Below are positions 2,578-60,900 of a stretch of 64,000 nucleotides of DNA, in pieces (the first letter of the stretch is position 1; each line of letters opens with the position of its first letter). Location: NCBI GenBank assembly GCA_026182355.1, contig JAPFBL010000560.1, positions 124,001 to 188,000 of the forward strand, in the 5' to 3' direction. The notes beneath the pieces were generated by a model. The model saw only the letters and a program-made list of their open reading frames with translations, was not told the DNA's origin and did no database searches. The position numbers and the translations under genes are program-made. The stretch is from Hermatobates lingyangjiaoensis. Lineage: Eukaryota; Arthropoda; Insecta; Hemiptera; Hermatobatidae.

Positions 2578-2990
2578 CTAGTTTAACGTCCAAACCACAA
2601 TAAGAAATGAGGAAAAATACTAAGAGTTTAACGTACAAACCACAATAAGAAACGAGACAAAATATTAAGAGTTTAACGTTCAAACCACAATAAGAAATGA
2701 GAAAAAAATACTAAAGAGTTTAACGTACAAACCACAATAAGAAACGAGACAAAATATTAAGAGTTTAACGTTCAAACCACAATAAGAAATGAGAAAAAAA
2801 TACTAAAGAGTTTAACGTACAAACCACAATAAGAAACGAGACAAAATATTAAGAGTTTAACGTTCAAACCACAATAAGAAATGAGAAAAAAATACTAAAG
2901 AGTTTAACGTACAAACCACAATAAGAAACGAGACAAAATATTAAGAGTTTAACGTTCAAACTACAATAAGAAATGAGGAAACATACTAAG
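2578..2990 (-). repeat. 92-bp (2 x 46) tandem array made from PLE tail sequence
   Basis: Alternating monomers (GTTTAACGTTC.. and GTTTAACGTAC..) give about nine 46-bp units, with a 92-bp higher-order period (positions 2679, 2771, 2863, 2955). The core CAAACCACAATAAGAAA is the same string that lies at the outer end of family A PLE tails elsewhere in the window. The array runs directly into a family A hammerhead-like tail. Confidence 0.85.
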
Positions 2991-3160
2991 ATCTTTCAAT
3001 CAATACAAGCCGTCTTCGTCAGAGTCAATCCCAAATCAACGACGAAGACTGCTTGTTACGATTGAAAGATCTTAGTCATTTCTCTCATTTGTTATTATGG
3101 TTTGGACATTGATTGTTGTTTCACCTGTTCAACAGTGAAATCTTGTTATAGACTAGTTAG
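2990..3160. mobile_element. PLE tail family A, inverted pair
   Basis: A minus-strand tail (2990-3037) faces a plus-strand tail (3041-3160). Both carry the GAAAGATCTTAGTC and GACGAAGAC blocks. Centre spacing is only a few bases. Confidence 0.8.
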
Positions 3161-3770
3161 TTTATACAACTTAAAACATACAAATGATATTGTAATTAAT
3201 AACAATACGAAAGACAATTATAAATGATATAATTGTAATTCTTTTTTATCAAATGGTGCAATAGCGATCATAGATCAAAGAGCGTTGTGATAAAAAAGAA
3301 TGTTTATTTTCTTATCAGGTTACGCTCAAGGTTTACAATTAGTTTTTTTTTTATTTCGAAGTTAAATAACATTATTTATTTATTTTCTGTTAATGAAACA
3401 TATAAAACTATAGAACTTGTAAAACGAAATTCAGATTAAACAATACCGATTATTGGTACCTCAAAAGTTTAATATATTCTAATTATATTTTGTTGTTGTA
3501 GCTAATAAAGAACCGTATTTAAGGAGTAATTGTATTTATATCTTTTATATTATATAATTCTTCAATCAATTTTCATTAATCCTTTGTATAAGGTAAGTTA
3601 ACATATCAAAGCTGAAGACGCGTTTATATATACATGTGTTTATACAGCAGAATAATACACTAATTGCGGTAATTCAAATGCGAAATAGAACAATTAAATA
3701 TAAATAGTTGTACTTATTCAATTACATGAAGTAATTTTTTTCACATTAATTAGTATTTATTTGATTAAAT
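3110..3770. other. AT-rich, nothing recognised beyond the tail end
   Basis: After the PLE tail I see no gene or repeat unit. Confidence 0.4.
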
Positions 3771-3850
3771 CAGAGTTTCTCAAACTTTTTTCGACGCGGA
3801 ACCCTTTTTGCTTCAGTAACTTTCCCAGGAACCCCAAAATGTCAGACTGT
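3771..3850 (+). mobile_element. hAT-like element end (CAGAGTTTCTCAAAC family), fragment
   Basis: The start matches the terminal repeat of the longer copies at 32966, 40382 and 63105 (GAACCCTTTTTGCTTCAGTAA). Only about 80 bp remain; a SINE lies just beyond. Confidence 0.65.
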
Positions 3851-56700: not shown

Positions 56701-57873
56701 TTTTAATGTTGATCCACTTATTCTAAAGTTTGCAACTCATAATAAAATTGTGTTACAAGTGGGTGGAAAATCATGTCTTTTGAGCTTAAAGTGCAAACGG
56801 AATGCTCTTTGTGTTGCTGTTACCGATTCGTTGTTTTTGAAAAATGTTTTAACAATGAATGCGTGATGCTCGCCGTTCCAGTTCATAAGGATATACTGAA
56901 ATAAATAAAAAAAAAAAAGCTTATCAGACATTTTGGTATAAATAAAATAAAATAGGTATAATATGTGCATTTAGAAAATAAAAGATTTTTTCAAATGATT
57001 TATTATGTTTGGGTTTTATTAAGCCCACAAATGTGTCAAATCATTTTGGACCACGCTATAGCTGTGTGAGAGAGCATGGATCCTTATGTGAACATGAATA
57101 TATTCTAGAGAAAAAAAAACGAGAAATGACGAAAAACAGACGCTGTTGCCTACTTTTAAGCTTGAAACTCCATGGAAACTTTATTTAATGTAATTTATGA
57201 TATTGAAATTATTAAAACTCAATATTATTACATGTTTCCATAAATAAAGGAATGCATACGTTACATATGTCTAGGTAATCAATCTTCATAAACAGACCTA
57301 CACTTGCTTGAAAGGTTATTATTATTATAATGAAATGAATACAGGGGTACCATATAGAAAATGAATTGTAAATACAGCTGTGTTTGCCTTCATACTTGTC
57401 AATTTCTCGAAGTGGAACGCTTAATACAGCAGTAACTCCTATTAAAGTAATAATAAAATTAATAACAATATTTACGTCAACTGAACTTGTCTAAACAACA
57501 CCGTAAAGGAAATAATTAAACATAGGTTAATTTATTTTACTAAGCAAAATATGTGGATCTCCTATCAAACTATTTCCTTTGCAACTATTCTTTCAACATT
57601 TCTTTAATATGTGAACAAAAATATGACGAAAGATTAATGCTACTTACACAGAAGGAGTTGTCTTGTGCTGAGAAAACTAAATATATTTTTTTTTTTACAA
57701 AAAAAACGCAGAATTTTGAACTCGGTCATTTTCTGGTACTTAATATGAAAACAATTTACTTATTAAACCTGAAATTTTGTATATATGGACAGATATACAA
57801 ATTGGTTGGATCTTCCTAATCTATGAAGAAGGTCTGTAATGTGGTTTATACTTTCACGTATTCATTGTATAAT

Positions 57874-57927
<54 letters not shown>

Positions 57928-60900
57928 ATGTGTGTGTGTGTGTGTGTGTAAAGATTTCACATAAACACGTGAAATAACAATCAATGATCAAACCACAATA
58001 AGAAAATGGGAAAACAAGACTAAGATCTTTCAACCGTAACAAGCGGTCTTCGTCAGAGTCAAAAACCCAACTGAAATACTATATGCACGACGCATTTGGT
58101 GAGGAGTTGAAAAGAGTGGGGGAAAAGAGGGAGGGAAGAGTGGTATTTTAAAAGTGCAGGAAAGGACAAATGTCCAGAAATGGATGTTTGGGGAAACAAA
58201 GGAGTACAGTTAGAAAGAGTAAAAAACTATCCGCTAGCTGTCAACCCTCTTAGAAGAGGCTATTGCCCTCGTAACGAAAGTATCAAGTTTGAAGAGACCG
58301 TTACTAATGTTCATAATATTTGATCTATTAAATTTAATTAGAGACGATTCAATAATATTTCTTAACAACATCGATTTTTCATAGGTAATAAATTTAGCTC
58401 CTGTCCAATCAATATGATGATTTTCATTTTTTATTTGCAAGAATAAGGCGCTACTTTTTTCCAGTCTACTTACGTTGTACTGGTGTTGTTTTACACGTGT
58501 CTTTAATGATTTACCAGTTTGACCAATATAAATTTTATTATAAAATAAAAAGAAAGAACAACAGCAATTGTTGAAATTGGAAAAATTTTCTTAATCTTCC
58601 TTTCACTATCTTTCTTAATACCGAAAATTATTTAATTTAATTTAAATTATTTAATTTAAGAATTATTAATGTAGGAGAGATTTTTGTTTCAAGCATTCAT
58701 TTGGAAAATAAAGCTTCCGTTGAAACAATGAAACACTTCTTTATCAATTCTCAATCAGTGAAGTTTTTTAATTAACTGAATAATTATTGAAATACTATTA
58801 ACAAACAACCAATGACTATAATTGCCTTTATTACTAATTTTAAAAACCTTTCGGGAGCAGGGGTTTAAATATATTTAATAGTTTTTTTAAACATATTATT
58901 TTACTTTTCAAACAATCGGGAATCTTTTTGGTAGATCTTTATAACAGTTCCTGACAAAAGTTGAAATACGTTAAATGTTCCGTTTTTTTTGGAAAGGGAC
59001 AGATGAAATCCAGATTAAACTACATATTTCGAATAATTCTTTGTATAACAGTATAGATATAACAATAATAATAAATAAGTTAAATATAACAGTGTAACTT
59101 AGTATAAATCTAGTACCCATTCTTCACTAAAAGGATGTGTTATTAATTTGTTTACTTCTTTTATTATTATCCTAATTACTTTAACATCTAAACTGGTAAG
59201 AATTGAGTCTCCACATGTGATCTGTTTGCATTGGCTATGTTCGTGTGACTGTTATCCCGCCCCGCTGTATTGCCAGCATTCCTGCATGAGCCAATGCCAT
59301 TGAAATTGAAGCGACAACAACAATAAACCCGCCGGAAGCAATCAAGTGAATGGATGCCACAATAACAAACATGACATCCAGCTGATACTTAGATTTATTA
59401 CTATCTATAAACTAAATAAGTCTAACGAAATATATATAACTATTTCTTCTTCAGAATTTGCTACAATGCTCATTCACAAATTAATTTGAAAAAAAAAAAA
59501 CAACTGAACAAGTTTCGTACTAGGGTTAGGCAACACTGTAGGTTGTAGTGTCAGTTCTACAACGGAACACACATAGGTCGAACATTGGGCCCTTTGTGAT
59601 AATACACAATGAAGATTGATTGTGCATTGGGAGTCATAACTTTATTAGTTACGCACTAATTTAGTTTCTCACTCAATTGTATTTAGAGTAGGGATCTTTA
59701 ACGAGTACCTGACATCATACAGGCTCGGGACCAACGGTTTAACGTCCTTCTCCCAGGGACGACGTACTCAGATTTATTCACCTCCCATGTAAATACATCG
59801 AGGGACAGAGTGAGTATTGAACCCCAGACCCACCAGTTCAAGACAAGGACGTTAACCACTGACCTAACCTGGCCCTCAAAACTTAGGTACTTTAAGAACA
59901 TGAAGTTGGCATCACTGGGATGAGCCCTGATCAGTTGGTTGATCAGTATTCTAGTTTTTATAAACCCTAAATAAAGTTTAACGATGGTGAATCCACCAGA
60001 AAATTCTATATTGGTTGAATAACATTCTATAATTCGTTTTTTACGATTAGGCTAGGCTACGATGGTTGAAATAAATCTTCATTTGTTTAAACATATAAAT
60101 ATTATTTACAAATATTCATATTAAATACAATACTGAGTATTTGTTGTAAGTCATATAATCCTAAGGTCATCTTTCTATTTGTTAAACTGTCTTAAAAACA
60201 ACTGTAAATGTAGAGTATGTTTGAAATTTTTTATGGGAATATTGAAAAAATGTTTCACGTCATTTCCCAGAAAGACTGTAAAGATTAACATATGATATCG
60301 GCTAAATATACTGGAACCATCTCGAGCGTGTATCATATAAGAAACTCTTTAATAATTACTCAAAATAAACTTTAACATGGTGAAATTTAACTTGATGGAG
60401 AATGGAGCAGGTAATGTGACTCAGCAATAACTAAAATAGTCGTCTGTTATCAAATGAGACTTGGTTGGTGTTCAAGAATCGAACTGAAGTCAAAAGCTTA
60501 AAAACAAATACTAAGTGCAAAACTGCGTCATTTTCATTATTGAAAATCAGTGAATAGTTCAGGTTTACCATCTAGATCTAGAGTTGGGAAGATTTCTTCA
60601 TGAAGAAATAAAGTTGTATTCAGCATTTGGTAATTTACTCACACAACAAATATTGATGTAGTCAACAAAAAAATTATATTGTTACATGTTTGGGGTAGTA
60701 ATGTAGTGATTAAGTGCCTCTAATAGCCTCTAATAGTCAACTCCGACTTTCGGCCTTCACGAGGCTACCCTGTTAACCTGCTACATACAGGGACAAACGA
60801 AAGAGGAGGAGAAGGTGACCAGGGACTGGGCCTGACCACCTTTGTTTCCCATCCTTCCTAATCCCCAAATCCCTTCCTTTTATCTCAGCCCTAATCTATG

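Follow-up and report, generated by a model that had tools for sequence, protein, structure and literature searches.

The window studied here is a stretch of 64,000 nucleotides from the genome of the hemipteran insect Hermatobates lingyangjiaoensis (bases 124001-188000 of contig JAPFBL010000560.1, in an assembly of 910 Mb), and it holds many short inverted pairs of sequence lying in (TA)n tracts. We consider it probable that these pairs are 3' ends of Penelope-like elements (PLEs) joined head to head, mostly with a tail on one of the two arms, and that each of them likely stems from one insertion, in which both strands of a single staggered cut primed copying of the same RNA. The orientation of the arms, the rule of one tail per pair, short target duplications in the informative inserts, variants shared between the arms, correlated and unequal truncation, and the junctions are all seen directly in the sequences. 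A first-pass annotation of the window had pointed to ten such places and had proposed two-strand priming at (TA)n as their origin.

The inverted pairs are real and go beyond chance. The window alone has 131 inverted repeat pairs of at least 25 nt whose copies lie no more than 1,500 nt apart. Beside it we examined a sample of 20 pieces of 10 kb each, spaced 1 Mb apart on two large contigs, which gives a total of 264 kb. With a threshold of at least 50 bits, the list comprises 68 inverted pairs (window 26, sample 42), and in 29 of them (15 and 14, respectively) a (TA)n tract of at least 10 bp lies within 120 bp of both outer edges; in the remaining 39 such a tract is missing from at least one side. 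When the identical 68 spans were placed at random in 1000 trials, the average number with (TA)n on both sides was 1.2 and the highest 7. TA-flanked pairs are about three times as dense in the window (15 in 64 kb) as in the sample (14 in 200 kb), and the pattern is alike. All ten places cited earlier hold inverted structure, nine as inverted repeats and one, 10317-10490, as a tail-less arm opposite what is just a tail. Tails pointing outward with (TA)n on both sides are present at eight of them, namely 10317, 10514, 13670, 20975, 24086, 25196, the part 32367-32574 of 32190-32577, and 35957. The other two do not follow this description: at 13465 the left boundary lies further out, with a weakly matched tailed arm (32 bits) starting at 13345, and at 42785 the inverted pair is present while (TA)n is absent.

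The two outer edges of a pair are not equivalent. In 26 of the 29 TA-flanked pairs (all 15 from the window and 11 of the 14 from the sample), the gap to (TA)n is 0-9 bp at one outer edge and 21-51 bp at the opposite one, and none of the 29 is flush with (TA)n on both sides. The three exceptions are one weak 48-bp pair and two pairs which, when read by hand, directly adjoin an interrupted TA tract or a CA tract on one side. The extra bases, some 30-40 and roughly 35, are alike across pairs of one family and stand at the sense 3' end of one arm. They are the known tail of PLEs, described in the accessible part of PMC3846280 as an optional extension of one inverted pseudo-long terminal repeat (pLTR), and the optional 30-40 bp tail on one inverted pLTR is thus found here as a PLE trait. 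The first-pass annotation was right that the pairs run tail-out, and it has to be corrected in treating all outer edges as 3' ends that touch (TA)n in the same way, for one is flush and the other tailed. A separate scan with a tail library gave 55 intervals, 22 of them with one recognised end only; two 'UU' intervals were judged by hand to be (CA)n artefacts and set aside. Since this library was seeded with 27 already asymmetric pairs, the unbiased figure for the one-tail rule is that of the inverted-pair list (26/29). When eight tails were folded, the hairpin was strong in the coding family described below (z -2.9) and one other tail reached z -2.1, while in six of the eight a hairpin, as a general feature of tails, was weak or absent.

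One family, called F1 here (e.g. 10515-10923), matches bases 2488-2812 of the element at locus L067 at 98%, and on this match it is the 3' end of a coding element. The L067 element has a stop-to-stop open frame of 812 codons, which matches RVT_1 (E 3.8e-12) and, at its C-terminus, GIY-YIG (PF01541, E 4.8e-4), the latter with 20.8 bits, slightly below the curated cut-off of 22.6, and with the GIY...YIG letters visible; the endonuclease fragment in the window is weaker alone (GIY_YIG_2, 14.7 bits, E 0.031). A 128-bp direct repeat, 100% identical, stands at each end of the L067 tail-less arm, as direct pLTRs flanking the frame. Among the 116 proteins listed, organism-named relatives come only from the mantis shrimp Oratosquilla oratoria and are 49-50% identical, the closest being LOC143018013 (50%). 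Together, RVT_1, GIY-YIG and pLTRs in L067 bear out the earlier assignment to PLEs for the coding family. The other window families are likely PLEs as well, judging by their common one-tail architecture and by translations of their tails read by eye. The letters CTGANGA...GAAA of a hammerhead-like core are visible by eye in several families, and a match to a hammerhead in Rfam was not found. At L056 384-715 a coding-family arm directly next to (TA)n ends exactly at the would-be cut of this core (reference base 261, ...GATCTTAGTC), as though copying had begun from an RNA whose 3' end was made by self-cleavage; this is a single case, and the ribozyme is putative.

For the coding family, tails were counted over the window, the 20 random stretches, 38 match loci (which contain all 40 scored matches of that search except the window's own) and 10 coding-scale loci. 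On the whole, 73 joined head-to-head pairs comprise 41 one-tailed, 2 two-tailed and 1 tail-less pair, and 29 that are unclassifiable, with one or both outer ends at neither start site; an earlier count with a shorter reference gave 37, 2, 0 and 5, respectively, of 44. If each arm chose its start site independently, one-tailed pairs would make up at most half. The start sites are sharp: in joined pairs, 18 of 20 tailed arms abutting TA stop at one reference base, and 21 of 24 tail-less arms abutting TA stop at one of two places 4 bases apart, with two further arms elsewhere. Tail-out orientation prevails at coding scale too. A search with the endonuclease gave 20,975 candidate places, and among the best 150 scored there are 24 neighbours less than 6 kb apart, 22 of them tail-out (-,+), none tail-in (+,-) and two in tandem (+,+); a limit of 8 kb adds one (-,-) neighbour. 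The sequence was examined for 10 of the 22 tail-out pairs, of which eight are one-tailed, L070 is two-tailed, and L074, with an internal break, is one-tailed by hand reading. By eye, all ten lie in TA or TA-rich sequence.

The lengths of the two arms are unequal and coupled. Within the 41 one-tailed pairs the arms are truncated at different points, as much as 2,023 bases apart, and in the pooled set these points are correlated (Spearman 0.67); the difference is no more than 25 nt in 18 of the 41, against 6.0 after permutation. Exactly equal arms are rejected, near-equal arms being nevertheless over-represented, and fully independent truncation is rejected in the pooled set too. Arms equal in nearly all pairs, which the first-pass annotation had regarded as fatal to its model, are not what is found. 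The arm-length differences it had noted reflect a real difference in truncation and, in part, just the one-sided tail; its view of unequal truncation stands, and what has to be given up is independence, since the ends are correlated and the same variants tend to occur in both arms. The tail-less arm extends further upstream in 30 of the 41 pairs, and in 19 of the 23 with a difference of no more than 40 nt (p 0.003). Of the 41 junctions, 15 have an overlap of 1-5 bases (once 16), 22 have 1-28 bases of filler, and 4 have neither. As to variants, the arms of L068 have all 27 of 27 in common, 12 of which occur in no other examined coding pair, and those of L073 share 19 (of 20 and 19), 15 of them private. 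At least one private variant is shared in 6 of 10 coding pairs, and the variant sets overlap on average by 0.57 within pairs and by 0.11 between them; the left arm of L067, being the reference, has no variants. In pLTR-length pairs the diagnostic site agrees in 27 of the 28 where both arms cover it (Fisher 4e-7). Correlated truncation and common variants thus indicate that the arms come from one RNA or from one source locus; variants do not separate the same molecule from the same locus, and the correlated ends favour the same molecule.

Likeness of this kind is also compatible with snap-back or self-priming, in which one cDNA or antisense RNA folds at its 3' end and copies itself into a palindrome. 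Self-priming has been suggested for rotifer Penelope elements (PMC3846280, in the part accessible), and near-perfect palindromes do occur, such as L071 with arms of about 1,010 bases and 2 differences. A self-copy, however, should tail both arms unless RNA or protein covers the tail, while 41 of the 44 classifiable pairs have one tail, and a copy cannot exceed its template, while the tail-less arm is the longer in 30 of 41, by 784 bases in L067. We therefore regard this route as unlikely, though it is the strongest of the alternatives.

The target sites bear on whether a pair is a single event. Young pairs, in which each arm has an identity of 95% or more to the reference, number 24, and (TA)n lies within 6 bp on both sides in 17 of them, on one side in 5 and on neither in 2; positions no more than 12 bp from such a tract make up 3.3% of all bases. 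A duplication of the target is invisible in pure TA and becomes visible where the TA is interrupted. Our first duplication test was too loose (26/77 observed against 6-15/77 for mismatched flanks) and was replaced by a stricter one, which demands that 11-16 bases recur exactly in the two flanks and include a G or C in their interior. Under this test, 10 of 67 inserts have a duplication; when the flanks were shuffled 300 times, the average was 1.7 and the highest count 6, so that one or two of the ten may be due to chance; the cleanest, of 11-14 bases, are at L031, L046, L053, L057, L068, L075 and L076. Since the duplications flank the pair as a whole, the pairs look like one insertion through a staggered cut into pre-existing TA-rich DNA. 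The same observation bears on two separate insertions in opposite directions into the same (TA)n tract. Such tracts are indeed used repeatedly, for the window has arrays of differing inserts with only (TA)n between them at 24037-25655 and 10019-10923. Yet of the 73 head-to-head neighbours no more than 100 nt apart none has a TA tract between the arms, and among tail-to-tail neighbours 14 of 27 do; besides the enclosing duplications, the private variants shared in 6 of 10 coding pairs and the lack of any close tail-in coding pair among the best 150 endonuclease matches also speak against it, and we hold two insertions to be very improbable.

Later palindromic duplication of a single insertion, or a fold-back artefact of reads or assembly, would suit the pairs with nearly equal arms, but duplication would copy tail and flank together, while arms are unequal and flanks differ, and the single tail recurs across several families and many contigs; we give this hardly any weight. 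The earlier argument against palindrome duplication holds, and the existence of two start sites, usually used once each, makes it more strongly than arm length does. The ends of miniature inverted-repeat transposable elements (MITEs) are symmetric. A DNA transposon of the foldback or MITE type, inserting at TA and unrelated to PLEs, would account for inverted repeats, TA-rich targets and clusters like those of microsatellite-associated MITEs (PMC5907723, PMC8449440), but it is the least credible of all, since the ends are asymmetric with a one-sided tail, truncation points vary within a family so that neither symmetric terminal inverted repeats nor a fixed length is seen, the coding family has a reverse transcriptase and GIY-YIG frame, and the clean target duplications are of 11-14 bases and not TA.

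Priming of one RNA from both strands of a cut, as proposed at the outset, may be pictured as follows. The GIY-YIG endonuclease, probably as a dimer, would cut both strands about 12 bases apart and leave two 3' ends. One of these would begin copying on the 3' side of the tail and yield the tailed arm, and the other on its 5' side, yielding the tail-less arm; both copies would proceed toward the 5' end of the RNA, halt at different points, and be united by end joining. Copying would be simultaneous, with the reverse transcriptase of the tail-less arm as if ahead on the shared RNA. The two-strand priming of the first-pass annotation is thus still the best explanation, in view of the staggered cut, the duplications, the absence of TA between the arms and the unequal truncations, and it needs change in four points. 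The self-complementarity of (TA)n, which it had named as the cause, is not borne out in that role, as interrupted TA and some targets outside (TA)n give the same structure. We further suggest, with more doubt than belief, that PLE insertion may be intrinsically two-headed, so that a dimer would read one RNA twice at once, every completed insertion would be a one-tailed inverted pair, and single arms would be failures.

In LINE-1 twin priming, a single target cut provides primers for the RNA from both of its strands and an inversion results, the segments of which are non-overlapping parts of the RNA. The priming of both strands of one cut is alike, and the non-overlapping segments are not found here, where both arms repeat the same 3' region. 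The accessible part of PMC3846280 reports for Penelope elements of Adineta vaga pLTR copies inverted head to head, one of the inverted pLTRs bearing a tail of 31 bp, an inverted pLTR shorter by 37 bp in Pen2a, target duplications of 8-10 bp and junction palindromes. Inverted head-to-head copies, the single tail, target duplications and junction palindromes are thus alike; that work deals, as far as the accessible part goes, with individual copies and favours self-priming on an antisense template, whereas dozens of pairs are counted here, many of them in (TA)n, and their counts favour priming by both strands. In vitro, the protein of Poseidon from Anolis carolinensis (PAc) cleaves AT-rich DNA and elongates both strands, and its reverse transcription starts at two adjacent internal sites, the interval between which is the genomic tail, with no need of target homology (PMC11167929, in part). 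Extension of both strands and two start sites bounding the tail are shared with our pairs; for PAc, no strand difference in the start site was seen in vitro, and two copies within one product are not shown in the accessible part of PMC11167929, whereas the finished insertions here contain paired copies and mostly use each start site once. Microsatellite-associated MITEs form arrays by repeated insertion into microsatellites (PMC5907723, PMC8449440), which resembles our arrays, but they are DNA transposons. Inverted PLE copies, the single tail and the idea of self-priming are already published (PMC3846280), as are two-strand cutting and extension and two internal start sites in vitro (PMC11167929), as far as the accessible parts of both articles show, and the inverted dimer, which the first-pass annotation had offered as its own idea, is not wholly new. 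In the open-access literature we found no report of a count of one-tailed pairs, of an RNA shared by the two arms, of coupled truncation or of (TA)n as a PLE target, which is weak evidence of novelty, subscription literature being mostly outside.

Several points weigh against a single two-strand event on one RNA. The one-tail rule is not absolute, with two-tailed pairs at L012 4068-4295 and L070 322-2708 and a tail-less pair at L039 390-860, and the 29 of 73 coding-family pairs that could not be classified stand outside it. In window and sample, at an identity of at least 92%, there are 3 TA-flanked single arms against 8 TA-flanked pairs. The coupling of truncation points is not significant in the 10 window and random-sample pairs alone, and the lead of the tail-less arm was counted in the coding family. 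Four of 10 coding pairs share no private variant, L067 has 10 mismatches between its arms over about 1,995 positions, and the likeness of two arms might equally have arisen afterwards, by gene conversion between them. In the in vitro work on PAc, top and bottom strands showed no difference in start site (PMC11167929, in part). Finally, the scope is the genome of one individual.

In the window, the one-tail pairs of the coding family are 10515..10923 (tail-less arm on the left, 10515-10809; tailed arm on the right, 10810-10923, with the tail at 10889-10923; (TA)n on both sides), 24086..24278 (tail 24242-24278, with a 3-base junction overlap), 32367..32574 (tail 32367-32401) and 35957..36091 (tail about 35957-35987, with a tail-less arm of just about 30 bp). 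Further one-tail pairs lie at 6206..6411 (tail 6206-6240), 10058..10290 (10058-10082), 10317..10489 (left arm barely more than tail, right arm tail-less and about 140 bp), 13669..13943 (13669-13711, with a hammerhead-like core by eye), 13971..14111 (14077-14111), 20967..21279 (20967-21002), 24620..24845 (24620-24655), 25188..25432 (25188-25221), 32587..32735 (32700-32735) and 41734..41993 (41734-41767). An atypical inverted pair at 35508..35774 has an extension of 51 bp on the right and 9 bp on the left, and the inverted pair at 42794..42998 has no (TA)n flank. The inverted hammerhead-like repeat 13478-13649 belongs to 13345..13651, which begins with the weakly matched tailed arm and whose right end is not recognised as the usual tail-less site. 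A long inverted pair at 22574..24036 (region 22558-24085) has 500-bp arms at 100% with internal tandem repeats of 156 bp, its edges being 21 and 0 bp from (TA)n, and may represent a further PLE-like family whose pLTRs are in tandem. At 57952..58590, on the minus strand, the coding PLE family has a tailed arm standing singly, which carries the end of the endonuclease frame (58234-58590). At 24864-25027, a coding-family tail-less arm continues in the same direction into the body of what is, by eye, a PLE-like element of another family, followed by (TA)n, for which a template switch between RNAs is possible. Apart from PLEs, the window has tandem arrays at 51877-54620 (47 bp x 58), 37426-39157 (187 bp x 9.4) and 28119-28785 (48 bp x 14), and a DDE transposase fragment at 20516-20878 (DDE_3, E 1.6e-6, 28.4 bits, slightly below the curated cut-off of 28.6).

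PLEs have been described as a third class of eukaryotic retroelements (PMC11167929, in part). For their integration, a count that ties two start sites to two strands and one RNA gives a testable scheme, which would explain the frequent inversion of PLE copies, and it shows how PLEs can seed hairpin-forming inverted repeats in microsatellites.

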